Of a stretch of 36,792 nt of DNA, positions 7,494 to 22,445 are shown piece after piece; within the stretch, counting starts at the first letter, position 1; every line of letters begins with the position of its first letter. Source of the DNA: Asanoa hainanensis (GTDB taxonomy: Bacteria; Actinomycetota; Actinomycetes; Mycobacteriales; Micromonosporaceae); the NCBI RefSeq assembly GCF_900188485.1, contig NZ_FZPH01000036.1:1-36792 (forward strand), given 5' to 3'. The notes beneath the pieces were generated by a model. That model was not told where the DNA came from, made no database searches, and saw only the letters and a list, made by a program, of their open reading frames with translations. Made by a program: the position numbers and the translations under genes.

Positions 7494-8364
7494 CGCCTGT
7501 CTGAGCGACGGCGCCCCATTCGCCGCCGGGACAAATGCCTTCGCCGGGAGCGGCTGCGGGTGGGGTGGCGTCGGGGTGCCAGTGGGTGATGCCGACGACG
7601 CCGGGCTCGATGAGGGTCAGCCCGGTGAGGAAATCGTGGACTTCGAGGCGGGTGCGTGCCTTGGCAGGGGTGGCGGTCTGCTGGGCGTAGACGTCGCCCA
7701 CGGCGACCGACGCGGAGAGCGTAGGTTGGAACACCTCCGCTGCCCCGTGGGAGATCGCCACGAAGCTGCCGGGCGGCAGCGCCGCCACGAGTCGGCGCAC
7801 CGCAGCATGGGCTTGGTCATCGGGGAGGAAATGGAGCACCGCGGCCAGCACCAGCCCGACCGGCTGGTCGAAGTAGAGATGCCGCCGGGCGGCGTCGAGG
7901 ATCCCGTCAGGCGAGCGCAGGTCGCCGCGGACTGCAGTGGCGTATTCGTTGCCCCTTAGAAGGTCGAGGCTTTCCGACACGGCCACGGGGTCGATGTCGA
8001 CGTAGAGGACGCGGGCCTTGCTGTCTACCTGCTGTGCCACCTCATGGACATTGCCTTCGGTGGGGATTCCGGAGCCGATGTCGAGAAACTGCCGGACCCC
8101 GGCGTCGACGAGGTAGCGGATGACACGGCCGAGCCAGGCCCGGTTCGCCCGCGCGACGGCCGGTACGTCGGGCCAGGCGTTCGCGATGGCCAAGGCAGCG
8201 GCCCGGTCCGCGGGGAAATGGGTGACGCCGCCGAGGAAATAGTCATAGATCCGGGCGGCGGTCGCCGGCCGCTGACTCCGGTCGCCCGTCGACGCAGGCG
8301 TGGCCGCGGTGTCGGCGGGCAGTGATTCAGGCGTTGATGGGTCCGATGGAGGCGTGAGGGTCAC
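7483..8364 (-). CDS. SAM-dependent methyltransferase, Methyltransf_19 (DUF574) type
   Basis: The 293-aa product has RIYDYFLGG (about residue 38-46), FLDIGSGIPTEGN as the SAM loop, LYVDIDPVAV, AVLHFLPD and FVAISH, the full motif order of this family. It is a clear paralogue of the downstream gene at 6471-7493 but has no basic tail. The GTG start has AAGGA eight bases upstream. The N-terminus (first 30 residues) is a Ser/Thr/Pro-rich linker. Two tandem copies suggest related substrates or a heterodimer. Neither can be assigned a product. Confidence 0.92.
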   Translation of the reverse strand: MTLTPPSDPSTPESLPADTAATPASTGDRSQRPATAARIYDYFLGGVTHFPADRAAALAIANAWPDVPAVARANRAWLGRVIRYLVDAGVRQFLDIGSGIPTEGNVHEVAQQVDSKARVLYVDIDPVAVSESLDLLRGNEYATAVRGDLRSPDGILDAARRHLYFDQPVGLVLAAVLHFLPDDQAHAAVRRLVAALPPGSFVAISHGAAEVFQPTLSASVAVGDVYAQQTATPAKARTRLEVHDFLTGLTLIEPGVVGITHWHPDATPPAAAPGEGICPGGEWGAVAQTGGAR

Positions 8365-8496
8365 GTTGGGATTCCTTTGTGGATGGGATGGTCAGGTCGA
8401 GTCGCACCTGTTGGGGCGGCGCCTTCACCTGCCGCCTACGTAGGAGGGGATCGAAGCCGTGGTGTAAGAGGTGGCCAGGCAAGGGTTTGATGGCCG

Positions 8497-10173
8497 TCAC
8501 CGGTTCTGCCGGGGGAAGTGAGGGAGACGAATTGGGTCTTGTTTCACGCCCGGGACTCCGACGCTCCCGAGTGGCGAAACCAGGGTGCGGCGCTGAGGTA
8601 GCACCTCGATGAGGCCGCGCCGGCTGAGGTGCCGGATGGCGCGGCTGGTTGTCGCTAGGGATACGCCGTAGTGGGCTGCGATACGTTCACCGGTGGGCAT
8701 TTGCGTGCCGGGCGGGTAGTGGCCGGCGGTAATGGCGTCGGCCAGTTGGTCAGCGATCCGTAACGGCAGCGGGCGGAGGTCGTCGGCCAGCGGTTGGAGT
8801 ACGTCGACCGGCGGAACCGGTGTGGGGCGCCGGGGTCGAAGATGTGGCGGGCAGGCGGCCAGCTCGAAGAACCGGGTGCGCTGGTCGGGCGGTAGCGCGG
8901 CGAGCACCTGGTCGAGCGCCTGCTGGTGCGCCGTCTCGGGTTGGTGAAGGCTGTTCTCCCAGCGGCTCACGGTGGGTTGGGAGACGCTTATGAGCGCGCC
9001 GAGCCCTGCGCAAGTGAGTTCGAGGACCTGCCGCAGTGCGCTGATGGCCTCGGCATTCCAGGACATGCCGGGCGGGCGCGGCGCAGCCGCGCGGTCGGCG
9101 CCCCCGTCCGTACCGGATTGGCGCGGCGGGTACAGCAGCGTGGCGAAGGCGTGCCGGTCGGCGGGGCCGAGCGCGCGGAGTAGCCGTGTCAGCGCGACTC
9201 GAGCCAGGCGTGAGGGTTGTATTGAGCCACGTTCCCAATGGGAAACTTGGCGGCGAGTGAAGCCGATGCATGCGGCGAGCTCGGCTCGGCTCATCTTTGT
9301 GGTTGCGCGCAGTGCGGCCACCGCGTGCGGTGGCCACGGCAGCACCTCACCGTTGCGGACAGTTCCGGCCAGGGTGATTGGACCGCCGGTTTCGCGGCTG
9401 TAGCTGGGTCTTCTACCGCGCCGCGGCGTGCCGCCGGCGATCGCGATCGCGATTCTACTGTGGACATGCTCTTTTCGTATCGTTCTATTGTCTCCCGACG
9501 TCGGGGTGGCCGCTGCCGGCAGAGGGTTCGTCTCCACCGCTTCAGCGGTCGCGTCCTTTCGCCCGCGCGGTGGCGCGGCTGACCACCGTGTCCTCCGCGG
9601 CTGATATTGAGCGCGCATCGGTGGTGCGGGACGCCAGGCTCGGCGATTTCCGGGATGGCCGGCGGGCGCCAGACGGATCCCGTCGAGCTGAACCCAGATC
9701 GTCCGGCGCAGAACGACCTCGCCGCTGTCGTCGAGTTGATCCCCATCGAGCCAGATCCAGCCGTCGTATGTGCTCCAATTGCTGTGGATCTGCAACAACC
9801 AGAACGGGAACGGCTCAAGCGCGAACTGAACACTCGCGGCACGACCAATCCACAACAGCTGTCCCACCGTCGGTCGGGGCCGGTCGTCACAGAGCCCGCT
9901 GTGAGCGGTGTACCAGGCCAGGTAGGCGGTGCCGTCGCCGGGCGAGGGGCCATCGTCGGGCGTGCCGTGCTCGTTCGCGCCGGGTGTGCCGTTGCAGGAG
10001 GCGGCGGGTCGGGGATCGACCACCACCGCCGCTCCTTGCCCGCCGGCCGGTCGGCGGTCTCGCGCCGACGGCGGGGTGGTGCGGCTGGTGTAGGTCGGGT
10101 TGAAGGGCGGGTGGGCCGCGGCCGGAGCCGGCGGCTCACGTGGCGGCCGCCCTGGAGGCAACGGCAACCCCAC
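8497..10173 (-). CDS. Multi-domain regulator: N-terminal unknown domain, two XRE HTHs, one GntR HTH
   Basis: This 558-aa open frame has four parts. Residues about 84-170 form a conserved-looking domain (YLAWYTAHSGLCDD, EPFPFWLLQIHSNW, DGWIWLDGDQ). Residues 284-335 are an XRE helix-turn-helix (SRAELAACIGFTRRQVSHWE). Residues 374-427 are a second XRE unit (LGALISVSQPTVSRWEN). Residues 468-534 are a GntR-type winged helix (PTGERIAAHYGVSLATTSRA, then RGLIEVLPQRRTLV). An AT-rich dip at about 9460-9500 could be an internal promoter, with GTG 9345 as the start of a separate 282-aa regulator, so this may be two genes without a stop between them. It starts 66 bp after the paralogue at 10240. Confidence 0.75.
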   Translation of the reverse strand: MGLPLPPGRPPREPPAPAAAHPPFNPTYTSRTTPPSARDRRPAGGQGAAVVVDPRPAASCNGTPGANEHGTPDDGPSPGDGTAYLAWYTAHSGLCDDRPRPTVGQLLWIGRAASVQFALEPFPFWLLQIHSNWSTYDGWIWLDGDQLDDSGEVVLRRTIWVQLDGIRLAPAGHPGNRRAWRPAPPMRAQYQPRRTRWSAAPPRGRKDATAEAVETNPLPAAATPTSGDNRTIRKEHVHSRIAIAIAGGTPRRGRRPSYSRETGGPITLAGTVRNGEVLPWPPHAVAALRATTKMSRAELAACIGFTRRQVSHWERGSIQPSRLARVALTRLLRALGPADRHAFATLLYPPRQSGTDGGADRAAAPRPPGMSWNAEAISALRQVLELTCAGLGALISVSQPTVSRWENSLHQPETAHQQALDQVLAALPPDQRTRFFELAACPPHLRPRRPTPVPPVDVLQPLADDLRPLPLRIADQLADAITAGHYPPGTQMPTGERIAAHYGVSLATTSRAIRHLSRRGLIEVLPQRRTLVSPLGSVGVPGVKQDPIRLPHFPRQNR

Positions 10174-10239
10174 CGCCGCCTGGGCACAATGCCGGGAGTC
10201 GATGGGCGACCAGTCGAGGTGTGCTGACGGTCCACGGGT

Positions 10240-11085
10240 CTAGCGGCCATCTGGTTCGCGGCCGGCGGCGATGGCCACGGTTGCGGCATCGTGGTGGACG
10301 GACGCGTGCCGCAGCCGCAAGGGTTCGAGCCGGTCCAGAAAGTTCCGGACATGCGCGATGTACCGCCAGTCCACCGCGTCGGCGGGTTCAGTGACCTCTC
10401 GAAGCGCGCTCATCGCGTCCGCGGCTCGGCCGCACGCCATGAGCAGAGACACCAGCTGGACGGCGACCGTCAGGGCCGCGACGTTCTCGCGGGGGTCACC
10501 GTACGTGTCTTTCCAGGATTGCCAGGCGTCGGTGGCTAACGTGGTGCCTTCGGCGCAGCTGCCGTCGGCGTGCAGGTAGGCACCGAGGAGTAGCCGCGCG
10601 CGTATCACGTCGTCGACGTCGCCGTGTTCGCGCTGGAATGCAAGGAGCCGGCCCGCGAAGGTGATTGCCTCGTGGTGACGGTCGAGGCGGTGCGCAAGTA
10701 CGGCGACCGCCTCGGTCGCGGCTGCCAGCTGGGCCGGACCGGCCACCTCGGACCGTAGCGCGGTGGCGTGGGCGTAGCGTGCCCATTCCAGAGCAGCTTG
10801 TGTATCGATAGCGGGGACGGGGCGGCCTGCGTCGCCGATGCTGTGGGGCAGCCGGCGCCCGGACCGTGGTGATCGCCGTCGCGGTGGATCGGTGGGTGTC
10901 GCGTGTACCGCACTGTCTGTGTAGAGGAGTGCGAGTTCGAGGAGACCGGCGTCAGCTTGCACGGTGGCGGGGTCGAGGTGGGAGAGGGATTGCGCTGCGC
11001 GCAGTGCGGCCTTGTGGTATCGGCGGTGGTGGTGGAGGGCGCGGACGTCGCGGATGATGCGGGCGTGCACGAGGTCAGTGGTCAC
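10240..11085 (-). CDS. Helical-repeat (TPR-like) protein, paralogue of 765-1616
   Basis: The 281-aa product is an Ala/Leu/Arg-rich helical-repeat protein. It shares with the product of 765-1616 the N-terminal RALHHHRRYHKAALRAAQSL region, ELALLYTDSAVHA, WARYAHATA, HHEAITFAGRLL and VSLLMACGRAAD, plus the same overall length. The GTG start at 11085 follows GGGGAACC. It lies 117 bp downstream of the second ABC-like gene, so it may be read with the operon or from its own promoter. No catalytic residues stand out. Function unknown. Confidence 0.88.
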   Translation of the reverse strand: MTTDLVHARIIRDVRALHHHRRYHKAALRAAQSLSHLDPATVQADAGLLELALLYTDSAVHATPTDPPRRRSPRSGRRLPHSIGDAGRPVPAIDTQAALEWARYAHATALRSEVAGPAQLAAATEAVAVLAHRLDRHHEAITFAGRLLAFQREHGDVDDVIRARLLLGAYLHADGSCAEGTTLATDAWQSWKDTYGDPRENVAALTVAVQLVSLLMACGRAADAMSALREVTEPADAVDWRYIAHVRNFLDRLEPLRLRHASVHHDAATVAIAAGREPDGR

Positions 11086-11202
11086 GGTTCCCCGTCGTCG
11101 GTTCTGTTATCGGTGGGTGTCGGTGTGGTGCGCCGCTTCGGGAGGGCTGCGGCGCACCACACCGCGGCGCCCTGTTACTGAGCCCGGGCCGCCCGGCGAG
11201 GC

Positions 11203-11988
11203 TCAGGGTCGTGTCGGGGCGCCGGGTCCCTGCCCCCGGCGGGGGGCGCGGCCGGGCCGCCGCGTCACGAGGGCAGGGACGTCGCATCGGTAGGCGGGTC
11301 GGCGTGCCCGGGCAGGGGTCTCCTGTGGGTGTGGCTGCCGCTGGCGGGGTTGAAGAGTTGTGGTGATCCAGCCGAGAGCAAGCCCGTCGTGGGGGTGGTC
11401 GACGGTGGCGATGGCAGCGACGTGTTCAGGCAGGTCGGCGAGCGCGTCGAGTAGACGCCGTTGACCCCACGTCGAGAGAGTCGCGGCCGGTCGCTCGAGC
11501 AGCAGCACCGCAGGGCGATGCAGCAATGCCCCGGCAAGATCGAGCAGGTAGCGGCGCTGGCGCGAGAGGGTCTGCGGCGGTTGGTCCGCGGCGCCGCGCA
11601 GTCCGACGCGGACCAGCGCGTCGTCGACGAGATCCTCGATGCTCAGGCCGCCGCCAGCTACCTGTCGCAGGTGTGTCCTGGCCCGCCGGGCCGCCGGATG
11701 GAGGGTTGCCGCGACGGTGGCGGCCCTAAGCGGCCGCGGCGTCTCACCAACGGTCTGGATCCGGGCCAGAGCCTGCGCCGGACCGGTCGGTGCGAGCGGA
11801 GTCTCACCGACCACGATGCGGCCGGTGTCCGGGCGCTGGATACCGGCGAACACCTCGAGCAGCAGTCGACCAGCCGGCGGCTCGCACACCACCGCCATCC
11901 GAGCGCCGAGAGGCAGCGTGAGGTTGACGTCGGCCAGGTGAGGTAGGACGGACAGGGAGGTCACGGCGAGTGCCGGGGTCCTGGTCAT
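11203..11988 (-). CDS. Degenerate ABC-type ATPase B (no intact Walker A)
   Basis: The 261-aa product has the ABC ATPase layout: an early beta subdomain (LADVNLTLPLGARMAVV), a Walker A position, a QTLSRQRRYLLDLAGAL stretch in place of the LSGGQ signature, and a Walker B position AVLLLERP followed by AATLS. Key residues are changed. The P-loop reads CEPPAGRLLL where GxxGxGKS/T is expected, so the lysine is missing, and the Walker B Asp-Glu pair is Glu-Arg. The switch His (TVDHPHD) is present. ATP hydrolysis by the usual mechanism is unlikely. The last 50 residues are Arg/Pro-rich. ATG 11988 overlaps the previous stop as ATGA, so the pair is translationally coupled. No membrane-domain partner is encoded nearby. 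Confidence 0.85.
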   Translation of the reverse strand: MTRTPALAVTSLSVLPHLADVNLTLPLGARMAVVCEPPAGRLLLEVFAGIQRPDTGRIVVGETPLAPTGPAQALARIQTVGETPRPLRAATVAATLHPAARRARTHLRQVAGGGLSIEDLVDDALVRVGLRGAADQPPQTLSRQRRYLLDLAGALLHRPAVLLLERPAATLSTWGQRRLLDALADLPEHVAAIATVDHPHDGLALGWITTTLQPRQRQPHPQETPARARRPAYRCDVPALVTRRPGRAPRRGQGPGAPTRP

Positions 11989-13019
11989 GGCGCCGTCCGA
12001 CGCGCCGCGCCGCGAATCTTGTTCCACGTCGCGGGGAGCCCGGAGGTGTCTCGGCTGAGTTCGGCGAGGACGGCCGCCACGACGGTGGAGGAATCGGCCC
12101 TGACGGTGCTGCCAGCACCGGGATCGGGGTATAGGCGCGGGAACCGGCCACCGCGGGTCAGGCGCCTGACCCGGGTGCCGTTGGTCACCGGAACGATCGC
12201 GACTTGCTCGGGTTCATGATTGCCGTCCCGCGGTGCGGCGATGTCGTCGCTGTCCGGCTCCCTCCGGAACACGATCGCGTCGCCGCATGCGGCTAACGCG
12301 TTCAGTTCGCGGACGGCCCCGGGGTAGGCGGTGGGATCGACCGTGATCCGGATGGCCGGCTCGGCACGGCGGATAGCCGCGGTGAGGTCGGTAACCGCCG
12401 CGCCCGCCGCCACGTCGGCCGGCAGGACGATGTGGACCAGCCGGTAACGGGCGAGGTACGCGATCAGGTCAGCTCGGCGGCTGGTCAGCAGGTCGATAAG
12501 CGGGTGCTGGTCCGGCCGGTGTCGGATGGTGGCCAGGGTCCGCCCTTCGGGGATGATGACCCTGACGCCGGCCACCCCGGACAGCGCGAGGTGCTGGCGG
12601 TCGACGCCTGGCCACAGCGGGAGCAGACTTCCGGGCAGGGTAGAGGCCGGTGCCGACGGGGCCGTTCCCGCAGCGGCCAGGCGAAGTTGGGGCCGGGTGC
12701 GGGCAAGCTGGTGCAGGGTGCGCACCGTGGCGAGCTCATCGCCGCCGCGCAGCAGATACGGGCTCAGCGCGGTGAGCAATGCCGCCATTGTGTCGGCGTC
12801 GACGTCGACTCTTTGGTCTGGCTCGAGATCGGTGTGCGCGATCAGGGTGCTGGCGAGGCGGCGCAGACCGGCGGGCCCGCCGACCTCGTGGGTGGGGTCG
12901 GAGGCGAGGAATCCGTGAGAGAAGTCGGCGAGCATGGCGACATCACCCGAACTGGTGGCCGAGGACCGCGCGGCGCCGGCCTGCAGTGCCGGGGGTTGGC
13001 GGTGGGCAAGGCGGTTCAT
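11985..13019 (-). CDS. Unknown 344-aa protein between two ABC-like genes
   Basis: The product begins MNRLAHRQPP and has alpha/beta composition in its middle (GVRVIIPEGRTLATIRH, RLVHIVLPADVAA, IRITVDPTAYPGAVREL). Near the C-terminus, PDPGAGSTVRAD followed by a helix vaguely resembles the GAGD region of PfkB-type sugar kinases, but the catalytic Asp is not in place and I do not assign it. Both ends are ATGA overlaps, with the ABC-like gene upstream and the second ABC-like gene downstream, so the three are made together. Function unknown. Confidence 0.85.
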   Translation of the reverse strand: MNRLAHRQPPALQAGAARSSATSSGDVAMLADFSHGFLASDPTHEVGGPAGLRRLASTLIAHTDLEPDQRVDVDADTMAALLTALSPYLLRGGDELATVRTLHQLARTRPQLRLAAAGTAPSAPASTLPGSLLPLWPGVDRQHLALSGVAGVRVIIPEGRTLATIRHRPDQHPLIDLLTSRRADLIAYLARYRLVHIVLPADVAAGAAVTDLTAAIRRAEPAIRITVDPTAYPGAVRELNALAACGDAIVFRREPDSDDIAAPRDGNHEPEQVAIVPVTNGTRVRRLTRGGRFPRLYPDPGAGSTVRADSSTVVAAVLAELSRDTSGLPATWNKIRGAARRTAP

Positions 13020-13780
13020 CGGCGGCCTCGCCCGGTCAGGGACAGCACGGCCGGGTCGTCGGTTCCTACGGGCAGGTCCGCGACCGCGATCGGCTTCTGC
13101 GGGCGGCCGTCGTTGACGGCTCTGACGTGGGTCGCGATTGCCGCGATGTCGGCGACCGCGGGCGCCAGGGACAGCACAGCGGTGTCTTGAGGCAGCTGTG
13201 TAAGCGCGTAGGTGAGGTGCTGGACCTCGCTGCTGGTCATTGAGGCGGCAGGGTCGTCGATGACGATGGCGGCCGGGTGTTGGGTCCAGGCAATCGCGAG
13301 ATCGAGGAGCCGGCGGCTGCCGACAGTCAGGCTGTTCACGCTGTGCGTCGCGTGGTCCCGCAGGCCACACGCTGCCAGGATGCGGGTCGTTGCCTCGTGG
13401 CCGTCCCGCCCGCCCGGCGTCAGCGGGGACCAAGCGGTCACGGCGCCGGCCACGGTGCCTGCTGCCACAGTGGCAGGCTCGCGGCGTACCAGGGCCAACG
13501 GCGCCGCCCGCCGGGTCCGCCCGGTGAGCGTCACACCGGCGACCGTCACTGCGCCGACGTGCGGCACGGATCCTTGGAGGATGCCGACGATAGCCGCGGA
13601 GACGTCGGTCGAGCAGATGATCGCTTCCCTGGCTCCGCGGCAGAGACGCAGTGTCAGCCCGTAGAGGGGCGGAACGTGGAGGCTGACATCGCTAAGGCAC
13701 AGCATCGAAGGCGCCGGGAGGGCGGGCCCGGCCGTGGCATCGAGAGACCGGCGAAGCTCTGTAGCGGTCGGGGTTCTCAT
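13016..13780 (-). CDS. Degenerate ABC-type ATPase A (no intact Walker A)
   Basis: The 254-aa product follows the ABC ATPase plan: LSDVSLHVPPLYGLTLRL, the P-loop position, GSVPHVGAVTVAGVTLTGRT, a NSLTVGSRRLLDLAIAW signature-like helix, and AAIVIDDPAASM as Walker B. The P-loop reads ICSTDVSAAIVG, without the glycines or the lysine. Walker B keeps Asp-Asp where Asp-Glu is usual. No switch His is obvious. It is therefore probably a non-hydrolysing, ABC-derived partner protein. ATG 13780 overlaps the upstream stop as ATGA; the in-frame start at 13795 is also possible. It is a distant relative of the second ABC-like gene at 11203, and the two may pair as NBDs do. Confidence 0.85.
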   Translation of the reverse strand: MRTPTATELRRSLDATAGPALPAPSMLCLSDVSLHVPPLYGLTLRLCRGAREAIICSTDVSAAIVGILQGSVPHVGAVTVAGVTLTGRTRRAAPLALVRREPATVAAGTVAGAVTAWSPLTPGGRDGHEATTRILAACGLRDHATHSVNSLTVGSRRLLDLAIAWTQHPAAIVIDDPAASMTSSEVQHLTYALTQLPQDTAVLSLAPAVADIAAIATHVRAVNDGRPQKPIAVADLPVGTDDPAVLSLTGRGRR

Positions 13781-14328
13781 CGGCACACCTGGCATGTGGA
13801 CGCGTCCGTTGGGATTCGCAGGCGGTAGGTGGTCCAGTCGGCGTCCCCGTCCTCGACCGTGAGTAGCCCGCTGGTGACGAGTGTGTGAAGGATGGTGCGT
13901 ATGCCGATCTCGCGGGCGTGCACGGCTCGCGCGAGGCGCTGCGTGTCATGTGCGGTGAGGCGGATGGCGAGCGAGCCGGGAGTGCGCAGGGCGCTGTCTT
14001 CGACGAGAGCGCGGGCCAACGTCGAGGTGTGGCCGCCGGGCGCGGTGGTGGACACGACGGCGAGCCAGCCCATGGCGTAGCCATCCGGGTCACGTACTGG
14101 GTCCACGTCCATCGTTGGGCTGCCAGCTGCCAGCTCGGCGTCGGTGATCGTGATCCGTCCGGGTCCGCCGCAAGGCTGCTGGGCGATGACGTTGCAGCGC
14201 CAGCCGTTGCCGCTGCGGCTCTGGACGGCAACGATTGCCGTGCCCCCTCGGATGGCCAGGACGCGACGCCGCGGGTCATCTCCGGTCGGAGGAGGTCCGA
14301 CGTGGCCGAGTTTCACGTTGGTGGTCAT
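13777..14328 (-). CDS. Unknown 183-aa protein with winged-helix-like C-terminus
   Basis: The product starts MTTNVKLGHV and has an N-terminal beta-rich part (RRRVLAIRGGTAIVAVQSRS, then CNVIAQQPCGGPGRITITD). The C-terminal part (EIGIRTILHTLVTSGLLTVE, then DADWTTYRLRIP) looks like the recognition helix plus wing of a winged helix. It ends with a CQVC pair. The start overlaps the decarboxylase stop as TGATG, and its stop overlaps the next ATG as ATGA. Possible roles include an accessory or regulatory subunit. No family is recognised. Confidence 0.82.
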   Translation of the reverse strand: MTTNVKLGHVGPPPTGDDPRRRVLAIRGGTAIVAVQSRSGNGWRCNVIAQQPCGGPGRITITDAELAAGSPTMDVDPVRDPDGYAMGWLAVVSTTAPGGHTSTLARALVEDSALRTPGSLAIRLTAHDTQRLARAVHAREIGIRTILHTLVTSGLLTVEDGDADWTTYRLRIPTDASTCQVCR

Positions 14329-15629
14329 CAGGGCCGTCCTGTCGTGACGTCGTCGGGTGGGGGTACGGCCCGGCGCATCTGCCGAGGTAGGCCGCTGGCC
14401 GCGCGCGCAGGGCTTGCTGCTTTCAACGCGGCGAGGTCCGCGCACAGCGCGTCGATCTGGGTCCGGGTGATCCCCGGCATGCACATGAGGTGGCTGATTT
14501 GGCCGCTGGCCGCGAGATGCCATTTGGTCGTCAGCTCGTCGGTAGGGCGGTCGATCACGACGGTCATTCCGTGCAGGTGCCGCCACGCTGGCCAGCCGAT
14601 GTCCTTGAGCCGGTCAACGGCATAGATCGCGGTTTCCCGTGCCTCGTGTGCGCGTTGACGGTGCCGGTCCAGGCCGAGGACGTCGAGCGCCCACCACAAA
14701 TGCAGGGGGGCGTGGCCGGATCGCGAGTTGGCCAGGGTGACCGAGGTGTCGAGGTAGTCGACCCAATGTCCAGGGATGCGTGCGCTGGCTCGCACGATCA
14801 GGACGCCACAGGGCATCGGGGTGCCGAGGAACTTGTGGCCGCTGGCGGAGATGGAATCGGCGCCGTCGGCCATGTCGAATCCTGGTCTCGCGTCCGGTGG
14901 CAGCAGGGCCAGCGTGAAGCCGCTGAGGGCGGCATCCGCATGGATATACGCGCGGTAGATTCGCGCCTCCCGCAGCACGGTGCGGATGCCGGGGATGTCG
15001 TCGACGGCCTCGGTCATCGTGGTGCCGACGGTGGCGACCACGATGGCTGGCCTGTCGCGGTAACCGTGGACCGCGGCGGCGAGGTCGCGTGGGTCGAGGG
15101 CGCCGCGCTGGTCGGCGGCTACCGCGACGCCAGTCATGCCGAGTTGGTCCAGTACCGCGGGAACTGATGCGTGGGCGGCGTCGGAGTAGTAGACGATCCC
15201 CTTGGGATAGATGCGCTGGCCGTTGAGGAGGCCGTATTCGATGCCGGCGTACCCGCCGCTGGTGACAAACCCCCACCGATCGCCGGGCGGTGCGCGGAAA
15301 AGGTCCGCACAGAGTTCGACGACTCTGCGTTCGAAGAGCTTGGAATGCGCGGGGAACGCCGAGCCAGAGAATGGATCGCCGAGGTTGTTGAGCAGCCGCG
15401 GGGCCAGTGCCGAGAGTCCGCTGTAGTCGATGTCGAAGGCGGCGGGGAACCCGAGGTTGTTGGCACGATGCCCGTCGAGCTCAGCAGCGAAAGCGTTGAC
15501 GACGTCCTCCGCACGGCGAATCCGCTCATCGCTATCGGTGCTGCCTCCCGCTTGGTGAATCAGGTCAGCGAGCGGCTGGCCGGCATCGTTGCTGTCCTCA
15601 AGGGCGGGCGCGGGGAGTGTCGTGGTCAC
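14328..15629 (-). CDS. PLP-dependent amino-acid decarboxylase, histidine-decarboxylase-like
   Basis: The 433-aa product is a fold-type I, group II decarboxylase. It has SASGHKFLGTPMPCGVLIV, whose Lys266 should bind PLP and whose wording is closest to bacterial histidine decarboxylases. It also has His153 in SDAAHASV (stacks on PLP), and Asp232 in IHADAALSGF (pairs with the PLP nitrogen). The usual TSGGTEGN segment reads TSGGYAGI, a difference that could affect cofactor or substrate contacts. Expected reaction: removal of CO2 from histidine or a similar amino acid to give an amine. The GTG start overlaps the upstream stop as GTGA. An APC-type permease two genes upstream fits substrate uptake or amine exchange. 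The substrate is inferred, not shown. Confidence 0.9.
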   Translation of the reverse strand: MTTTLPAPALEDSNDAGQPLADLIHQAGGSTDSDERIRRAEDVVNAFAAELDGHRANNLGFPAAFDIDYSGLSALAPRLLNNLGDPFSGSAFPAHSKLFERRVVELCADLFRAPPGDRWGFVTSGGYAGIEYGLLNGQRIYPKGIVYYSDAAHASVPAVLDQLGMTGVAVAADQRGALDPRDLAAAVHGYRDRPAIVVATVGTTMTEAVDDIPGIRTVLREARIYRAYIHADAALSGFTLALLPPDARPGFDMADGADSISASGHKFLGTPMPCGVLIVRASARIPGHWVDYLDTSVTLANSRSGHAPLHLWWALDVLGLDRHRQRAHEARETAIYAVDRLKDIGWPAWRHLHGMTVVIDRPTDELTTKWHLAASGQISHLMCMPGITRTQIDALCADLAALKAASPARAASGLPRQMRRAVPPPDDVTTGRP

Positions 15630-16390
15630 AGTCTCGGCTCCTCGTTCAGCAGCAGGGTGTGGAGAGCGTGAAGGCGATTCCAGAAGGCCGACATGTCGTG
15701 CCAGTGGACGCCGGCTGGTCGTTGAACGCGTTCCCAGTCGGCGGTGAACACGCTCGCGAGACCCGCGCCGACGACGGCGTTGCTGTAGACGGTCATCTCG
15801 TTGAAGCCATCGGCGCCGAGACGATCGATCTGCATCACCGTGTTGTCACGGAGCCAGGCGTAGCAGGTTCCTGGCACGTCCTTTTGAGCGCCGACGGTTT
15901 CGGGATCCCACGGTTGGCGGCGATGGTCCAGTGTGGACAGGGCAATGCCGAGGTAGAACGCCTGGCCGGAGGACTCGTCGTAGCGATTGGCCAGTTGCGT
16001 AGCGGGGTCGAACGACCCAGCGGCGATGTAGTCGCGAGCGTTGGACTCGACCCGGAACAACAACTGCTTCGGATCGCTGAGGTCCGGCTCGTCATCGACC
16101 ATCAGCGTTGCCGCCACGACGGCGAACGATGAACCCGGCAAGGGCCGCAGTGGTGCGGGGTCGACGAACAGGATCGCGACGGCGTGCGGGCACACCGGTT
16201 GAGCCCTGCGTTGCTGCCACGCGTAGTGGCCCTGGCGTACGTTCATCGCCCGCAGACGGTTCGCTGCTGCTCCCCGAGCCGCCGCCGCGTCGAGGGTGCC
16301 AAGCGGGTCGGGCCCAGGGTCGGAGCGATAAGCGGCGTAGGACTCGTCGGCTTGCTGGTTCCAGGCGCCCAGGTGCGAGTGAGTGGGCAT
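15626..16390 (-). CDS. Unknown 254-aa protein of the decarboxylase operon
   Basis: The product starts MPTHSHLGAWNQQADESYAA and is a well-mixed soluble sequence with HAVAILFVDPAPLR, SSFAVVAATLMVDDEPDLSD, and a C-terminal WHDMSAFWNRLHALHTLLL helix. No known motif or membrane segment is seen. A strong GGGGAGG ribosome site lies nine bases before ATG 16390, suggesting high translation. The stop overlaps the decarboxylase start as GTGA, so the two are coupled and probably work together. Function unknown. Confidence 0.85.
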   Translation of the reverse strand: MPTHSHLGAWNQQADESYAAYRSDPGPDPLGTLDAAAARGAAANRLRAMNVRQGHYAWQQRRAQPVCPHAVAILFVDPAPLRPLPGSSFAVVAATLMVDDEPDLSDPKQLLFRVESNARDYIAAGSFDPATQLANRYDESSGQAFYLGIALSTLDHRRQPWDPETVGAQKDVPGTCYAWLRDNTVMQIDRLGADGFNEMTVYSNAVVGAGLASVFTADWERVQRPAGVHWHDMSAFWNRLHALHTLLLNEEPRL

Positions 16391-16416
16391 GACGCGACAC
16401 CTCCCCTGCGGCGCGG

Positions 16417-17883
16417 TCAGATCTCGACGCTGGAGTAGCGGTTGTGGACCTCTCGCAGCGGGTCACGGGCTTTCCCGAGAGCCCCCGCGACGTCGGGATG
16501 GCGTTTCTGCAGCCACCACCCGCGGACCAATCCGGCGATCGCCACGGCCGCGATCACCGAGATCAAGATCCATCCCATTGGCGCCTGGGCGGGGTCGTCG
16601 CTCGGTCCGAGGACGAGCGCGTCGGCGTTGGTCAGCATCACCACGAAGATCACGGCCATGGCGAGACCACCCAAAATGGGCGCGACCTTAGCGGGCCACA
16701 TCCCGACCCGGCCACCCTCGACTTTGCCCTTGCGGTGGAAGGCGATGATGCCGACGCAGGTCAGCCCCATCACAGAGATCAGGCAAAGTGCGGCACCAGC
16801 AGCGCCCACCGAGAAGAGCTGATTCGCGTCGACCCCGGCCACGGCGCAGCCGACGATTACCATGAGCCCGACGGCGTTTTGTCCCCGCGACCCGCCGATC
16901 GGGACACCGATGCCTCTGACTGCGGCCAGCGCCGGTGGCAAGGCGCCCTCACGCGCCAGTGCGAAGGTGTAGCGCGCGACCGCCTGGTGGAAGGACAGTC
17001 CAGCGGCGAGGATGCTGGTAACCAGTAGGATGCGGGACAGGCCAGATACGACCGGTCCGAATGCTTGGTCGAGAACCTGGTAGACCACCTCAGGCCCGGC
17101 ATCGGATGTCCGGGGCCCAACCGCGTTGACCATGGCGACCGACGCGACCGTGAGCATCCCACCCAGTGCCAGCAGCGCGGTGAAAGTCGCGGCTGCGGTC
17201 AGCCGTGGAGTGCGGGCTTCCTCTGCGTAGGCTGCCGCGGTCTCGAACCCGGTGAAGCTGGCGATGACAAGCGCGATGACGAAGCCGGCGCCCGGACCTG
17301 CGACGTTGGACGGTGACAGCGGGGACAGATCCAAAGACCCGCGTGCGGGGTTGGCCAGGGCGGCGACGCAGAAGGCGATCACGACGAACATTTCCACGCC
17401 GAGGAACCACTTCAGGACCAGCGCGGCGTCCCGCACGTGGAGACGCCCCAGAACTCCGATCAGCGCCCACGCCAGCAGCGCCCAGACCCACCACTCGACA
17501 CCGAACGGCATCGCCGCGAGCTGCAAGCCCAACAGGCCGTACAAACACACCTGGATTCCGTTGTAACCGACCAGCACCACGAACGCGGCCGCGAGTCCGC
17601 GTGCGGGTCCGAGCCCCTGCGCAACAAACGCATACAGGGGGGCGGTGTGCGGAAGATGGGGAGCCATCGACGTGTAGGCGGCCGCGAAGAGCAGAAGCCC
17701 GACGGTCGCGCCGACGAACGCCAGAGCGATTCCCGTGATGCCGGTAGCAGCCAGCGCGCCACCGATGCCGCCGACTACCGCCGTCAACGGAGCCGCGGCG
17801 GTCAAAGCAAACGACGTCAGCTCAGGGCCGGACAGGGTCTTGCGGTCAAGACCCCGCGCAACGCCAACAATCGACCGGGTCAT
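16417..17883 (-). CDS. APC-family amino-acid/amine permease
   Basis: The 488-aa product has about twelve hydrophobic segments and APC-superfamily features. The first helix region (LTSFALTAAAPLTAVVGG) corresponds to the substrate-binding unwound helix, FTGFETAAAYAEEARTPR is the typical motif in the middle, and SFHQAVARYTFALAREGALP is the loop after helix 8. The usual length is 450-500 aa. It sits in the inner membrane. Its place directly before the decarboxylase pair suggests import of the amino acid, export of the amine, or exchange of the two. The ATG overlaps the previous stop as ATGA. The gap to the next gene is 26 bp. Confidence 0.93.
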   Translation of the reverse strand: MTRSIVGVARGLDRKTLSGPELTSFALTAAAPLTAVVGGIGGALAATGITGIALAFVGATVGLLLFAAAYTSMAPHLPHTAPLYAFVAQGLGPARGLAAAFVVLVGYNGIQVCLYGLLGLQLAAMPFGVEWWVWALLAWALIGVLGRLHVRDAALVLKWFLGVEMFVVIAFCVAALANPARGSLDLSPLSPSNVAGPGAGFVIALVIASFTGFETAAAYAEEARTPRLTAAATFTALLALGGMLTVASVAMVNAVGPRTSDAGPEVVYQVLDQAFGPVVSGLSRILLVTSILAAGLSFHQAVARYTFALAREGALPPALAAVRGIGVPIGGSRGQNAVGLMVIVGCAVAGVDANQLFSVGAAGAALCLISVMGLTCVGIIAFHRKGKVEGGRVGMWPAKVAPILGGLAMAVIFVVMLTNADALVLGPSDDPAQAPMGWILISVIAAVAIAGLVRGWWLQKRHPDVAGALGKARDPLREVHNRYSSVEI

Positions 17884-18248
17884 CGGTCTGCAGCCCTGAG
17901 GATCTCAGCCGCAGTGGACGGCTTCGGGCAACTCGGCGACCGGCAAAGGTCCCGGCGCAGATGAAGATCGAGGTCGTTGAGGCTGATCTCGACGACGCCG
18001 ATGTCCGCGACACTCAGCGGACCACGCTGATAGAAGGTCAGCACTCCACCAAGCAGAGGCCGGACCTCCGCAGCAGTGGCCCTCGGCGAGCCGAAGACGT
18101 GCGTGCCATCACGGAAATCGATACGGACGGCTGCCATGGCCGCAGACCTCGCCGGCGGCCTGGACACGAGTCTGCGCCCTCGTCCCCGTAGGAAGCCGTA
18201 CCAACCGGTGCCAGCCAACAAGTCCACAACTTTCCTCTCCCAGGGCAT
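17880..18248 (-). CDS. Small unknown protein, first gene of the decarboxylase operon
   Basis: The product from ATG 18248 is 122 aa and contains a basic N-terminus, a strand-rich part (MAAVRIDFRDGTHVFGSPRA, GVLTFYQRGPLSVADIGVVE) and a C-terminal Cys pair (CRSPSC). No family is recognised. The frame stays open up to a TTG at 18362, but that extension is low in charge pattern and would run through the operator region, so the shorter form is preferred. Its stop overlaps the permease start as ATGA. It is divergent from the regulator gene at 18433. Confidence 0.7.
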   Translation of the reverse strand: MPWERKVVDLLAGTGWYGFLRGRGRRLVSRPPARSAAMAAVRIDFRDGTHVFGSPRATAAEVRPLLGGVLTFYQRGPLSVADIGVVEISLNDLDLHLRRDLCRSPSCPKPSTAAEILRAADR

Positions 18249-18329
18249 GACGGGATGGCGCGACGACCCGGCGGTCGCCTGCGGAGGTGCGGGGTTACCG
18301 GTCGCCGTCAGCGCGGGCCAAGGAGATCC

Positions 18330-18449
18330 ATGGTGACCAGCGATGACGGCAGCGCTACGCAAAGCACGCTATTGATTGCGATCATCACTCGCTACTACAC
18401 AGGTAGCAGTCTCGGCAGCTACCCTCGCTGGCATGGAGCAAGTAGCTGA
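18330..18449 (+). CDS. Possible 39-aa small ORF overlapping the regulator start
   Basis: ATG 18330 is preceded by AAGGAG with a four-base gap, the best ribosome site in this spacer. The frame gives 39 residues, with a hydrophobic stretch STLLIAIITRYY, and stops at 18449, overlapping the regulator's first 17 bases in another frame. It could be a leader peptide coupled to regulator translation. The palindrome at 18391-18407 lies inside it, so the sequence is under another constraint and coding is uncertain. Confidence 0.35.
   Translation: MVTSDDGSATQSTLLIAIITRYYTGSSLGSYPRWHGASS
18391..18407. promoter_or_regulatory. Palindromic operator-like site, copy 2
   Basis: GCTAC, TACACAG, GTAGC: perfect 5-bp arms and a 7-bp spacer. 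With its flanks it is 21 bp identical to the inverted copy at 638-654. It lies 25 bp upstream of the regulator ATG at 18433 and about 140 bp upstream of the operon's first start at 18248 on the other strand. A TACCCT hexamer at 18420-18425 could be the -10 of a leaderless regulator transcript, which would put the operator over the -35 region. Autoregulation is inferred. Confidence 0.72.
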
Positions 18450-19665
18450 ACCGACCATCCTGCGCGGAATCGGCGCCAACATCGCCACCCACCGACGCGC
18501 TGCTTCCGTAACGCAGTCTGACCTTGCTGCCCGGATCGGAAAGTCCGTGCAATGGGTTTCCGCAGTCGAGCAAGGGCGCCGCCACGCAGATCGTCTGACC
18601 GACCTTATTCGCATCGCCCAGGTAGTGGGTTGCGCAGTCGAGGACCTCATCGGGCGTCCCGTAGAGACGCTCGCTCGTGGTGGCCACCCGCGCGCCGACG
18701 CGGTGTCTGCCGTACGGGAAGTCATCATGCGTGCCGCCGTACCGATCCCCAGGGCGGAACTTGTGCCGGATCTAGAGGACGTCAGTACGCGCGTTGCGGA
18801 CGCGTGGACCGTCTGGCACCAGTCACCGACCGCTCACTCAATCCTCGGCGGCGTCCTTCCCAGCCTGATTCGAGATGCCAATGCGGCATATCGTCACGGA
18901 TCAGACCCAAGGGCTGCAGCTCGAAACCTCTCCGGCGCCTACCAAATTACCCGTCAATGGCTGCACCACGTTCCCGACGGTGACCTGGCTTGGGTAGCTG
19001 CGGAACGGGCGATGAGTGCAGCCCGCGAGGCCGACGACCCGCATCTCATCGCACTCGGCGCCTGGGCGCTATCAGCGTCCTACCGTCGTGCTGGCCAGCA
19101 GGACGAGGCAACGCGGCTCTGCCTCGCCGCAGCCGACGAGCTGAGGACGCGCCTAAACGACGATGACCCTCAAACGGATCTGTTGGCGGACTATGGGATG
19201 CTTCATCTCGCGGCAGCTGTAAGCGCGGCGCAGTCGGACGAGGATGGGCGCGCCTGGGCACTTCACCGCGTCGCAGACGACGCCGCGCGTGCTTTGGGAG
19301 CCCGTTACGATCCGTGGACCGCGTTCGGCAGAGGCAATGTGGACATCCACGGCCTAGCGATCAGCGCCGAACTCGGCAAAGCCGACAGCGTAGTGGATTA
19401 TGCGTCCCGATTGGAGATCGACAACGTGCCGAGCGTAGAACGGCGCGCTGCTGCGCTGATTAATACGGCTCGAGGATACGTCCGGCGTCGTGAAGATGAG
19501 TCTGCGGCCCTCGTATTGCTCGACGCTGAGAACATTTCGCGCGACGAAGTTCATGACTCAACGCTGGTCCGCGAGCTTCTTCTGGAACTTCTGCATCGAG
19601 ATCGCGCTCGCGCCCGCGCACACATCCGGGGACTTGCTCAACGCTGCGGACTTATCGCCGCGTAA
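18433..19665 (+). CDS. XRE-family regulator with helical-repeat C-terminal domain
   Basis: The 410-aa product begins MEQVAEPTIL. Residues about 9-70 form an XRE helix-turn-helix (THRRAASVTQSDLAARIGKS, then QWVSAVEQGRR). The remaining 330 residues are helical with TPR-like repeats (YRRAGQQDEATRLCLAAADE, GYVRRREDESAALVLLDAEN), as in signal-sensing actinomycete regulators. ATG 18433 is chosen because the HTH spacing is normal and the upstream frame reads through the palindrome; no ribosome site precedes it, so the mRNA may be leaderless. It is divergent from the decarboxylase operon with the shared site between them, so it probably controls both. A strong terminator follows at 19673. Confidence 0.9.
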   Translation: MEQVAEPTILRGIGANIATHRRAASVTQSDLAARIGKSVQWVSAVEQGRRHADRLTDLIRIAQVVGCAVEDLIGRPVETLARGGHPRADAVSAVREVIMRAAVPIPRAELVPDLEDVSTRVADAWTVWHQSPTAHSILGGVLPSLIRDANAAYRHGSDPRAAARNLSGAYQITRQWLHHVPDGDLAWVAAERAMSAAREADDPHLIALGAWALSASYRRAGQQDEATRLCLAAADELRTRLNDDDPQTDLLADYGMLHLAAAVSAAQSDEDGRAWALHRVADDAARALGARYDPWTAFGRGNVDIHGLAISAELGKADSVVDYASRLEIDNVPSVERRAAALINTARGYVRRREDESAALVLLDAENISRDEVHDSTLVRELLLELLHRDRARARAHIRGLAQRCGLIAA

Positions 19666-19672
19666 AGTGCAA

Positions 19673-19709
19673 GGCCGGCCAGGCGCGCGATTGCGGCCCC
19701 TGGCCGGCC
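19673..19709. terminator. Terminator hairpin after the regulator gene
   Basis: A perfect 11-bp inverted repeat (GGCCGGCCAGG at 19673-19683 with CCTGGCCGGCC at 19699-19709) encloses a 15-base loop just after the stop codon at 19665. An AT-rich run follows. The next gene, at 19860, is convergent, so the hairpin may serve both. A weaker 6-bp hairpin (19731-19757) lies further on. Confidence 0.75.
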
Positions 19710-19859
19710 AATTGTAAAAAGCGCTCTCGCGGACCGGCGCAGCGTTGCGGGCGGTCCTGGCCGGAGTTGCCAAGAGGAGCCGAATGCACCTCTGCGGTCC
19801 TCGCATAGCGCGGTGGTGCTGAGCGTCGCACCTTCCCGCGCATGTGCTCGTCGCCGCGC

Positions 19860-21383
19860 CTAGTGATGCAGGAGCTCGGCTACGACTCCTGGGATGGCAT
19901 CCGCCATCGCGCTGGCGCTCACAGGACCCCCGTTCGAGGCATGGTTACCCGCCACCCCGTGCACGAGTGCAGCCATCGCGCCGGCGTCCGGTGCTTTGAT
20001 CCCTGCTGCCATTAGCGCACCTGCGACGCCAGCCAGTACGTCGCCCGATCCGGCGGTCGCCATCCACGACGTTCCGTCGCTTTGGCTATACATCCACCCG
20101 CTGGGACTGGCGATAAGCGTCGTGGAACCCTTAAGGAGGACCGTCGCTTCGGTCTCTGCCGCTAGCCATGCAGCATGATGCATCGGTCGAGACTCGACAT
20201 CGGCCCTGCTGACGTGGTGTCCAAGAAGACCGAGCATTCGGGCCAGCTCGCCGGCGTGAGGTGTCATCAGAATGCCATCGGCTCCGATCGGCCTCGTCCC
20301 CGCCGACCGCCGTCGGACACACTCTTCTAGTGCCCCAGCGTCAACGACACATGGCAACCCAGAATCAAGCGCTTGGGCGATACCCCGATCTTGGGTCTCG
20401 TCGGATTCCACGCCTGATCCGAGCAACCAGGCCTGCACTCTGCCGAGACCGGGGACCGCTTCGGGCACTGCCAGGATGACGTGGTCGGTGACCCGCGGTG
20501 GCCCTACGTAGCGGACAACGCCAACGCCTGCGCGAACCGCGCCGCGTGCAGCGAGAACGGCGGCGCCAGGGTAGGTGTCGGATCCGGCGATGACTCCGAG
20601 AACTCCACGCGTGTACTTATGATCCGGCCGTGCGGGCACCGGCCAGCGGGCAGCTACGCCCGTCCTCGTCAGCCGCCGCAGCGGAGCTCTCTCCGGGAGA
20701 TCGTTTCCCAACCCAACGTCGACGAGTACGGTTCGGCCTGCGGCATGCGCCGCCGGGGGAGCAAAGAGGCAGGGCTTGAACGTGCCAAACGTGACGGTGA
20801 CATCCGCTGTGACGTGAGATCCTACGATCTCGCCGGTGTCTGGATCGACGCCGCTCGGAAGGTCAACGGCTATGACGGGCACCCCTCTGGGGATGGCGTC
20901 AACCAACGCGTCTGCTGGGCTTCGGAGCCCGCCATTGCCACGATCCCCAACTATGCCGTCGACGATGAGGTCTGCAGCGGACAACGCATCGAACGCCGCC
21001 TTGCTGCCTTCGTCCGAGAGCGCGTCGAGGAAGCTTCCACCTAGTCGTCTTAGCTCAGAGAGTCCGGGCACGTAGGCATCAGTGCCCACTAGCACCGCAT
21101 CCACGTGCGCTCCGCGACCACGGAGGCGGGCACCTGCGACAAGGGCGTCGGCGCCGTTTTTTCCTACGCCTACCAAGAGAAGTACGCGACAGCCATAGAC
21201 CCTCCGGTGACGTTCGATCAGTATCCGCGTACATTCAGCCGCGAGGCCGGCGGCTGCTCTCTGGATCAGTACGTCGTCCATTCTGGAACGAGCTAGCACC
21301 CGAGACACCGCACCCCGAACGTCGGCGCTGCGGTGTGCCTCCAAGACTTCAGCCGATTTCACCGGTACAGGTTTCCACACCAC
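19860..21383 (-). CDS. nnr: Bifunctional NAD(P)H-hydrate epimerase / ADP-dependent dehydratase
   Basis: The 507-aa product repairs damaged NADHX and NADPHX. The N-terminal YjeF_N-type epimerase domain (about residues 10-220) has LLLVGVGKNGADALVAGARL, a variant of the NNGGDG loop, and VIAVDLPSGVDPDTGE. The C-terminal kinase-like dehydratase domain (about 230-500) has HKYTRGVLGVIAGSDTYPGA, GILMTPHAGELARML, VLLKGSTTLIASP and the catalytic TAGSGDVLAGVAG. Length is typical of the fused form. GTG 21383 is the furthest start; a second GTG follows immediately. In many genomes this gene is chromosomal housekeeping, which suggests this part of the window is chromosomal. Confidence 0.93.
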   Translation of the reverse strand: MVWKPVPVKSAEVLEAHRSADVRGAVSRVLARSRMDDVLIQRAAAGLAAECTRILIERHRRVYGCRVLLLVGVGKNGADALVAGARLRGRGAHVDAVLVGTDAYVPGLSELRRLGGSFLDALSDEGSKAAFDALSAADLIVDGIVGDRGNGGLRSPADALVDAIPRGVPVIAVDLPSGVDPDTGEIVGSHVTADVTVTFGTFKPCLFAPPAAHAAGRTVLVDVGLGNDLPERAPLRRLTRTGVAARWPVPARPDHKYTRGVLGVIAGSDTYPGAAVLAARGAVRAGVGVVRYVGPPRVTDHVILAVPEAVPGLGRVQAWLLGSGVESDETQDRGIAQALDSGLPCVVDAGALEECVRRRSAGTRPIGADGILMTPHAGELARMLGLLGHHVSRADVESRPMHHAAWLAAETEATVLLKGSTTLIASPSGWMYSQSDGTSWMATAGSGDVLAGVAGALMAAGIKAPDAGAMAALVHGVAGNHASNGGPVSASAMADAIPGVVAELLHH

Positions 21384-21421
21384 GCTTGGGAAGGCCGTAC
21401 CCGAGGCAGCGACGGCAACCA

Positions 21422-21445
21422 GTTGACATAAGACAAGTTATCAAC
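21422..21445. promoter_or_regulatory. AT-rich inverted repeat upstream of nnr
   Basis: GTTGA at 21422-21426 and TCAAC at 21441-21445 flank an AT-rich core containing ATAA and TTAT. It is one of the most AT-rich spots in the region and lies about 40 bp upstream of the nnr start and just downstream of the degenerate ORF at 21456. It could be an operator or promoter. No regulator can be assigned. Confidence 0.35.
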
Positions 21446-21455
21446 CACCTAGGCC

Positions 21456-21747
21456 TCACCGTGGGGCTCGGCACCGTACCGGGTTGAAAAGCGTCCATCG
21501 CCAGTCCCGGTCGTCGCGGATGAACAGCAGGCCGCACCCGTGTCGCGCTGCGCAACGGACGGCGCCAGTGCCTGCTCGGCTGCGAGCTGCTCGAGCAGCT
21601 GCTCGACCTGGGCGCGCTGAGCCGTTCGGCGGCGGCCGCCGACCAGCGCCCGCCGGCGACGTCCGGCGCCGGCAGCAGCCGCAGCTCGCGGGCGCGGTCG
21701 ATCTCGAGCGGGCCGAAATCCGTTCGGCCTGCGGTCGGCTGGGACAC
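21456..21747 (-). pseudogene. Frameshifted small ORF
   Basis: The minus strand from GTG 21747 (GGAG six bases upstream) reads MSQPTAGRTDFGPLEIDRAR and about 20 more plausible residues. The protein-like signal then moves to a second frame (QVEQLLEQLAAEQALAPSVA) and again to a third (HGCGLLFIRDDRDWRWTLFN), stopping at 21456. Two frameshifts in 290 bp suggest a decayed gene or sequence errors. It follows the gene at 21768 by 20 bp. Function unknown. Confidence 0.45.
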
Positions 21748-21767
21748 CAGATTCTCCGTCGCGCTGG

Positions 21768-22445
21768 TCAGGCGGGAACGGGTGCGTCGCTGTCGGCGGG
21801 AATGAAAGAGGTAGCGCGGTAGGCGGCCGCGCGGACCAGGTCACCGGTGGAGACGATCGGACCCGGGCGGCTCCGGGCGCGCCGCTGCACCGTGGCGGTG
21901 AGGTCGTCGGCCGGCAACGTGTAGAGCTCGACGGCCAGTGCGCCCATCTCGCGCAACAGGTCGAGCGGGAAGAAGGCGGTTGTCTCGTCGGACAGCCGCT
22001 GCAGGTGGGTGGTGGCGCGCAGGCTCACCCAGTAAGAGACCCGGCGGACGTGCTCGCCGAGCTCGTCGGGCAGCAGGATCGTCAAGCGGCCTTCCCCGCC
22101 GCGGTGGTGCGCATACCCGGACGTGCCCCACCGCCGGCCCGGCATCCGATCCTGCCCATCGGGCACTGGCCGGAAGGTCCGGCCAGCCCAGCCAGTCGCG
22201 CCCATCAGCCTGGACAAGTGCGCGCTGACCAGCGCGGACCGGGATGCGAGGACTTCGTGTCGGCGGCGCCGGTCGTCACGCTCGGCGTACAACCTCGCGA
22301 CCGCCGCTCGGCGCTGCGCCGCCGTCAGATCCCGCTGGCGGATCTCCAGCCGTTGCTCACCCAGCCAGCCGCGCTCCCGGATGAGGTCAGCGCCTACCAG
22401 TTCCGCCAGCCGATCGGGGACCGCCGGATCGACTGCCACAACCAT
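21768..22445 (-). CDS. Unknown 225-aa protein
   Basis: The product starts MVVAVDPAVPDRLAEL and has a charged helical first half rich in Arg and Glu (EIRQRDLTAAQRRAAVARLY, ERDDRRRRHEVLASRSAL). A middle segment follows with SGYAHHRGGEGRLTILLPDE, then LGEHVRRVSYWVSLRATTHL, and a final helix. The residues after ILLPDE recall ribbon-helix-helix or MobC-type mobilisation proteins only loosely. ATG 22445 follows a GGGGGG run and lies three bases after the stop of the SARP remnant, so it may once have been coupled to it. No firm family assignment. Confidence 0.65.
   Translation of the reverse strand: MVVAVDPAVPDRLAELVGADLIRERGWLGEQRLEIRQRDLTAAQRRAAVARLYAERDDRRRRHEVLASRSALVSAHLSRLMGATGWAGRTFRPVPDGQDRMPGRRWGTSGYAHHRGGEGRLTILLPDELGEHVRRVSYWVSLRATTHLQRLSDETTAFFPLDLLREMGALAVELYTLPADDLTATVQRRARSRPGPIVSTGDLVRAAAYRATSFIPADSDAPVPA

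Follow-up and report, generated by a model that had tools for sequence, protein, structure and literature searches.

The contig NZ_FZPH01000036.1 of Asanoa hainanensis (G000:C10), which was analysed whole and whose 36,792 nucleotides are termed the window, contains eight consecutive open reading frames (ORFs) on the minus strand at 11203-18248, termed g1-g8. The conserved core of this cluster is an amino acid permease (g2), a 254-aa protein (g3) and a pyridoxal phosphate (PLP) dependent decarboxylase (g4), while g1 and g5 are optional members and g6-g8 are a genus-level addition. The conservation counts of g1-g8 indicate that the full set of eight is particular to the genus and builds on a triad that recurs across the family. 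We propose, with a probability of roughly 0.5, that this system takes up an amino acid, decarboxylates it and exports the resultant amine with the aid of non-catalytic partners. The eight genes are as follows.

g1, 17880-18248, minus strand: small protein of 122 aa, optional member; an in-frame TTG start would lengthen it to 18362
g2, 16417-17883, minus strand: APC-family amino acid permease, core member (PF13520, 1.9e-24)
g3, 15626-16390, minus strand: 254-aa core protein, which co-varies with the permease
g4, 14328-15629, minus strand: group II PLP amino acid decarboxylase of the histidine/serine/alanine decarboxylase clade, core member, with Lys266, Asp232, His153 and Tyr292
g5, 13777-14328, minus strand: member of a 183-aa family, overlapping the end of g4
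g6, 13016-13780 (or from an ATG start at 13795), minus strand: predicted pseudo-ATPase derived from an ABC ATPase
g7, 11985-13019, minus strand: predicted 344-aa PfkB-family pseudokinase
g8, 11203-11988, minus strand: second predicted ABC-derived pseudo-ATPase, a paralogue of g6 with 28% identity

Conservation of the triad and coupling of the genes

The g3 profile was searched in 250 Micromonosporaceae, 394 class and 298 order genomes. In the genome searches with an alignment query, the best 6-10 first-look candidates per genome (8 for g7) were scored, and absences are of lower confidence. The g3 protein, for which no relatives are recognised beyond its own protein family, is matched at 68 places in 58 of the 250 genomes of Micromonosporaceae, which are known for antibiotics, and it marks the permease-g3-decarboxylase triad there. 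It is not matched outside this family: two of the 394 class genomes match, the window's own and another from Micromonosporaceae, and all 11 matching genomes among the 298 order genomes belong to Micromonosporaceae. When 67 of the 68 places are examined, the one left out being a near-identical copy in G005, g2 and g4 are both found within 4 kb of g3 in 64 (43/45 + 21/22), which supports the first-pass annotation of a permease alongside a decarboxylase. The order g2-g3-g4 is collinear on one strand in 59 of the 67 places. In five loci (L056, L057, L058, L060 and L084) g3 is inverted between g2 and g4, suggesting that the association of the triad is kept without co-transcription. The three places short of a member are L120, which starts at a contig edge, L087 and L088. 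The g1 gene is located near g3 in 24 places (16/45 + 8/22) and g5 in six (6/45 + 0/22). A g4 search outside the family in 197 class genomes detects, at 1e-40, only the window's genome (G000) and a genome of the same family (G008). No APC permease is listed within 7 kb of the 'histidine decarboxylases' in three regions of Streptomyces plasmids, for which the PLSDB gene tables are incomplete. The first-pass annotation had treated the eight genes as one system; conservation of all eight together is not found by neighbourhood analysis, and only g2-g3-g4 forms a core. Its statement that no cluster with this set has been described agrees with an open-licence literature search, in which no description of the set is found.

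All eight genes are present. Adjacent genes share 4 or 1 bases at six of the seven junctions, with ATGA at g1/g2, g5/g6, g6/g7 and g7/g8, GTGA at g3/g4 and TGATG at g4/g5. The sole exception is g2/g3, with a gap of 26 bp. This arrangement, first described from the sequence, is confirmed by the ORFs and by reading of the junctions. Overlap motifs are located at 38% of all stop triplets in the window, and six of seven junctions by motif alone corresponds to a P of ~0.014. Overlaps of 4 bp recur in relatives, at g4/g5 in L015, L018 and L019 and at g1/g2 in L015. By itself the motif count gives modest evidence for coupling, and these recurrent overlaps support it more strongly.

Pairwise distances over 41 loci are correlated with r of 0.92 for g2-g3, 0.85 for g3-g4 and 0.88 for g2-g4, and none of 1000 permutations reaches these values. 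When the third gene is controlled for, the partial r is 0.68 for g2-g3, 0.22 for g3-g4 and 0.48 for g2-g4, and these values are 0.65, 0.24 and 0.51 respectively when L015 and L018 are omitted. The nearest neighbour agrees between g2 and g3 in 31 of the 41 loci, and between g3 and g4 as well as between g2 and g4 in 23. The g3 protein would be a partner of the permease, most likely a soluble one, because its distances track those of g2 more than those of g4. The system gives a clear test case for g3 as a transporter partner.

The proteins of L015 and L018 are 80% identical to each other for g4, 59% for g5 and 71% for the pseudo-ABC protein, but 39% for g2 and 24% for g3. This contrast suggests that the two halves of the cluster have recombined and that g4-g5-pseudo-ABC moves as a block. 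The L019 locus (G000:C9) has g4 and g5 without g1 and g3, and a diverged permease gene is located 5 kb off. The cluster seems to be divided into g1-g2-g3, on the side of transport, and g4-g5 with the pseudo-enzymes, on the side of the enzyme. Since the block of g4, g5 and pseudo-ABC stays together against different g1-g2-g3 sets, g5 and the pseudo-ABC proteins would belong with the decarboxylase.

No Pfam family is matched above the cut-off by g1 (scanned as 17 members), g3 or g5. The g3 protein gives chance-level or no matches either to Pfam and NCBIfam, when its 44 members are scanned one by one, or to PDB, when it is used as a profile, and it is not related to g5 (hhalign probability 0.1). 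The g2 protein has no match among PDB sequences at 0.001. Among the 17 aligned g1 proteins, A40, H96, C102 and C107 are invariant and H50 is nearly so, and these conserved positions may form a metal site.

The decarboxylase and the pseudo-enzymes

The permease and the PLP decarboxylase with a SGHKF lysine, both named in the first-pass annotation, are confirmed by the PF13520 match of g2 and a PF00282 match of g4 (2.6e-19). Six residues, H153, D232, A234, S263, K266 and Y292, do not vary among the 18 aligned g4 proteins, and the residues characteristic of group II PLP decarboxylases (PLP lysine, aspartate, histidine and catalytic tyrosine) are present in all of them. The best solved relatives of g4, at 207-215 bits, are plant serine/alanine decarboxylases (PDB 8jij and 8jg7) and a bacterial histidine decarboxylase (7eru/7erv), and their lysine, aspartate, histidine and catalytic tyrosine are kept in g4. 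The g4 protein is probably an amine-forming enzyme, as had been proposed, because these PLP and catalytic residues are retained throughout the alignment. The roles of the catalytic-site residues are taken from PMC11407765, according to which Tyr111 of AtSerDC and Phe106 of CsAlaDC set the specificity and the Y111A mutation abolished serine decarboxylase activity.

The position corresponding to this specificity residue (A63 of g4) is occupied by G in 11, A in three, T in two, V in one and N in one of the 18 g4 proteins; Y, F and E do not occur there. In the solved bacterial histidine decarboxylase this position is E, in contrast to A63 of g4. The pocket motifs GYPE and NNCGDW of the solved histidine decarboxylase are not matched either, the corresponding motifs of g4 being GFPA and NNLGDP. 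The score of g4 against the histidine decarboxylase model NF002748 is 314.3 bits, which barely passes the cut-off of 305, and those of four relatives are 315.6 and 337.8, which pass, and 284.3 and 280, which fail. The earlier designation of g4 as histidine decarboxylase-like is weakened by this marginal score, by the two of four relatives below the cut-off and by a pocket that matches neither the plant nor the bacterial enzyme. The histidine label is weak, and genes annotated as 'histidine decarboxylase' in these genomes may be misnamed.

The g8 protein matches PF00005 at 2.4e-9, while g6 stays below the Pfam cut-off. The lysine of Walker A (GxxGxGKS/T), which is a hallmark of an ABC ATPase, is absent in g6, g8 and the corresponding proteins of L015 and L018, and the signature and H-loop regions are altered in g6, g8 and these relatives. 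This result agrees with the previous assignment of two ABC-like proteins without canonical Walker A, and supports their identification as ABC-derived pseudo-ATPases. The ATP-binding proteins of ABC transporters are the closest known counterparts of g6 and g8, but the eight genes include no gene for an ABC membrane protein. Pseudo-ABC proteins of the g6/g8 type (E ≤1e-35) are found in three of the 250 Micromonosporaceae genomes, all of the window's genus. The ABC-like matches in L064, L077, L086 and L090 are rejected as pseudo-ABC proteins, because they keep the Walker A lysine. The matches of L126-L131, at a distance of 5-6 kb from the triad, are also rejected; a UvrA-like gene lies at this distance in these six genomes, as named by eye for the four that were read, and the ABC-like gene of L128 matches ABC_tran in Pfam with intact motifs.

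The g7 protein, which the first-pass annotation had left unassigned, shows 28% identity over 162 residues to a PfkB-type relative of L099. Its residues 69-331 score 49 bits against a profile of three relatives, while neither the other genes of the window nor any of 200 shuffles scores above 3.9 bits. Pfam assigns these three relatives to PfkB (PF00294; 5.9e-22, 8.4e-23 and 1.1e-26) and makes no PfkB call for g7 itself. The DATGAGD motif of the relatives is replaced by VRADSST in g7, and the GGSAFN-type stretch is absent. By sequence comparison, g7 is a PfkB-family pseudokinase. Strong matches to g7 are found in two of the 250 genomes, that of the window and that with a near-identical copy. In 14 further genomes the match is weak, with an E of 3.9e-10 or higher, and the three that were read among these are PfkB kinases.

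Three predicted ATPase-fold pseudo-enzymes are combined in this way with an intact PLP enzyme in one coupled operon. It is very unlikely, in our estimate, that g6-g8 have no function and are what is left of a transporter and a sugar kinase in decay. Such decay would account for the eroded Walker A, signature and H-loop regions and the eroded PfkB motifs, and for a ratio of nonsynonymous to synonymous substitution rates (dN/dS) of 0.78 between g6 and g8, a value near saturation. It would also fit the three substitutions between the window and Asanoa siamensis in g1-g9, one each in g7, g8 and g9, all of which are non-synonymous. However, all frames are intact, the coupled junctions are kept, and three loci retain a pseudo-ABC protein without the lysine. 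The rough dN/dS between L015 and L018 is 0.28 for the pseudo-ABC gene, as compared with 0.22 for g4, 0.46 for g5 and 0.69 for g2, and the value of 0.28 argues against decay of the pseudo-ABC type. Decay may still apply to g7, which is known from one copy and its near-identical twin, with no diverged orthologue. At least one pseudo-ATPase type, a relative of g6 and g8, is under purifying selection.

Proposed function and neighbouring genes

In decarboxylase/antiporter pairs of the HdcA-HdcP and GadB-GadC type, an APC-superfamily permease is encoded next to an amino acid decarboxylase. An APC permease adjacent to a decarboxylase is likewise found here at nearly all g3 places, whereas the present system differs from these pairs in that it adds g3, optional g1 and g5, and the pseudo-enzymes. 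By analogy, the APC permease g2 would import an amino acid and probably swap it for the product amine outward, and g4 would remove CO2 from the amino acid to give this amine. In this genus, the enzyme side would have gained three non-catalytic ATPase-fold proteins (two pseudo-ABC and one pseudo-PfkB), and g6-g8 would most simply be scaffold or ligand-sensing subunits. We infer the direction of transport, the export of the amine and the roles of g1, g3 and g5-g8. In an extended version, which we regard as unlikely, g3 would be the first of a novel type of subunit for APC permeases, and a non-catalytic scaffold made up of g5, the two pseudo-ABC proteins and the PfkB-like pseudokinase would assemble and gate the PLP decarboxylase. 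If so, the system would be a mobile transport-decarboxylation complex whose amino acid decarboxylase is regulated by dead ATPases that descend from a transporter and a sugar kinase.

Several points weigh against uptake, decarboxylation and amine export as the function of this cluster. The direction of transport is drawn from the analogy with the decarboxylase/antiporter pairs. Single-sequence structure prediction gives no usable fold for g3 and g5, with predicted local distance difference test (pLDDT) values of 32 and 36 respectively. The distances between related loci are non-independent, and the dN/dS values are rough, that of g2 being obtained at about 40% identity and that of g6/g8 near saturation. 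No g2 match is found in L087 and L088, which both belong to genus g192; L087 has only a g4 fragment at a contig end, and L088 lacks g4 as well. Finally, a lantibiotic dehydratase gene (PF04738) is located ~3-5 kb from the cluster in four of 46 loci, which fits a biosynthetic cluster better. These genes are as follows.

L016, 17165-19501: lantibiotic dehydratase gene
L059, 2576-5617: lantibiotic dehydratase gene
L089, 1466-4531: lantibiotic dehydratase gene
L090, 504-3530: lantibiotic dehydratase gene

A biosynthetic role is the main rival explanation, which we hold as a tentative and somewhat less probable one. A specialised metabolite would then contain the amine, or else a peptide or precursor that has been decarboxylated, and the permease, acetyltransferases, deacetylases, methyltransferases and some lanthipeptide dehydratases would be supply or tailoring genes. 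In addition to the four dehydratase loci, the acetyltransferase-like and deacetylase genes beside some copies, the asparagine synthase gene near the g4-g5 paralogue in L019 and the Methyltransf_19 genes in the window speak for this role. On the other hand, besides g1-g4 no neighbour family is found in more than 10 of the 46 loci, in a clustering that splits diverged families. The dehydratase gene lies on the opposite strand in three of its four loci, and it is absent from the clustered neighbours elsewhere, these neighbours being partly annotated.

The deacetylase genes encode a histone-deacetylase fold (Pfam) and start 46-172 bp after g4 in L061, L065 and L068; such a gene also follows g4 on a Micromonospora zamorensis plasmid. 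They may represent accessory chemistry of the amine type, and we count them in favour of uptake, decarboxylation and amine export. The genes before g1 in L061, L064, L065 and L068 resemble the GNAT acetyltransferase of L019, which is confirmed by Pfam (5.2e-9), with 31-36% identity (1e-17 to 1e-24), and none of the four matches Pfam by itself. At 4641-9734 and 14036-16400, L019 contains a second decarboxylase gene accompanied by g5, together with genes for a MarR protein, a lipoprotein-like protein (by eye) and asparagine synthase, and the GNAT gene is located by the diverged permease gene.

The features flanking the operon in the window are as follows.

inverted repeat, 11121-11164, minus strand: perfect 16-bp hairpin without U-run between g8 and the next gene, possible terminator
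g9, 10240-11085, minus strand: protein past the hairpin, with TPR matches only at E 0.53
regulator gene, 18376-19665, plus strand: divergent XRE-type regulator

The operon plausibly ends at the hairpin, because this perfect inverted repeat sits between g8 and the next gene. The g8-g9 gap, which holds the repeat, folds better than 198 of 200 shuffles, while a consensus scan detects neither a terminator nor a promoter on the operon strand and does not pick up the hairpin either. The g9 gene is possibly linked to the system, because in four loci (L053, L063, L083 and L085) a relative of it begins 62-266 bp past g4. The g9 family has two paralogues in the window, at 765-1610 and 10240-11085.

The proposal that the system has its own regulator finds little support. 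Relatives of the XRE-type regulator are present in four of 45 other loci, among which only that of L089 is strong and directly beside g1, while that of L074 is located ~3 kb upstream and those of L017 and L068 are weak. Other loci carry different XRE-type genes. The window also contains one long ORF at 8497-10173 with two XRE-type domains and one GntR domain, whose N-terminal part resembles, by eye, a small protein encoded after the pseudo-ABC gene of L015 (12742-13170).

Probable mobility of the cluster

The window is 99.96% identical at 1-6765 and 99.68% identical at 6765-22481 to contig NZ_BONE01000028.1 of A. siamensis (G005:C28, L013/L014), whereas the two Asanoa genomes share 88% identity at the one 3-kb locus of the chromosome used as a test. 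This difference suggests that the DNA was transferred recently between Asanoa species. The adjoining contig of the window's genome, as placed by comparison with G005, holds the second decarboxylase gene and is 99.95% identical over 11.2 kb. The stretch 6765-22481 contains 50 differences, of which 43 fall at 6984-8158, within the two Methyltransf_19 genes, and this concentration resembles a recombined tract when window 1-23854 is compared with L013/L014. A. siamensis has ~2.57 kb extra at window position 22480.

The triad is also located on the M. zamorensis plasmid, which is circular, 203 kb long and annotated with relaxase, ParA/ParB and transfer-type genes, and which PLSDB types as non-mobilizable. 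In L081, a phage-type integrase gene is located ~1 kb past g4. No near-identical sequence to window 1-22000 is found in the plasmid collection.

The relaxase and transfer-type genes of this plasmid and the near-identical DNA in the two Asanoa genomes would also fit amine-based signalling or competition on mobile elements, in which the amine acts on neighbours or the host. This explanation is improbable: no receptor, toxin or immunity gene is recognised, the plasmid is typed as non-mobilizable, and the matches to a defence library are weak (SspA to g4 at 0.0011, and a helix-turn-helix to the regulator). A defence system is rejected, because only these weak library matches are found.

Beside the copies of the cluster, a type II/IV secretion ATPase gene (Pfam) is located next to a gene for a ParA-like protein (by eye, with no Pfam match) at 41-2330 of L019 and 2516-4773 of L018, and a prepilin peptidase gene is located near the copy on the M. 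zamorensis plasmid.

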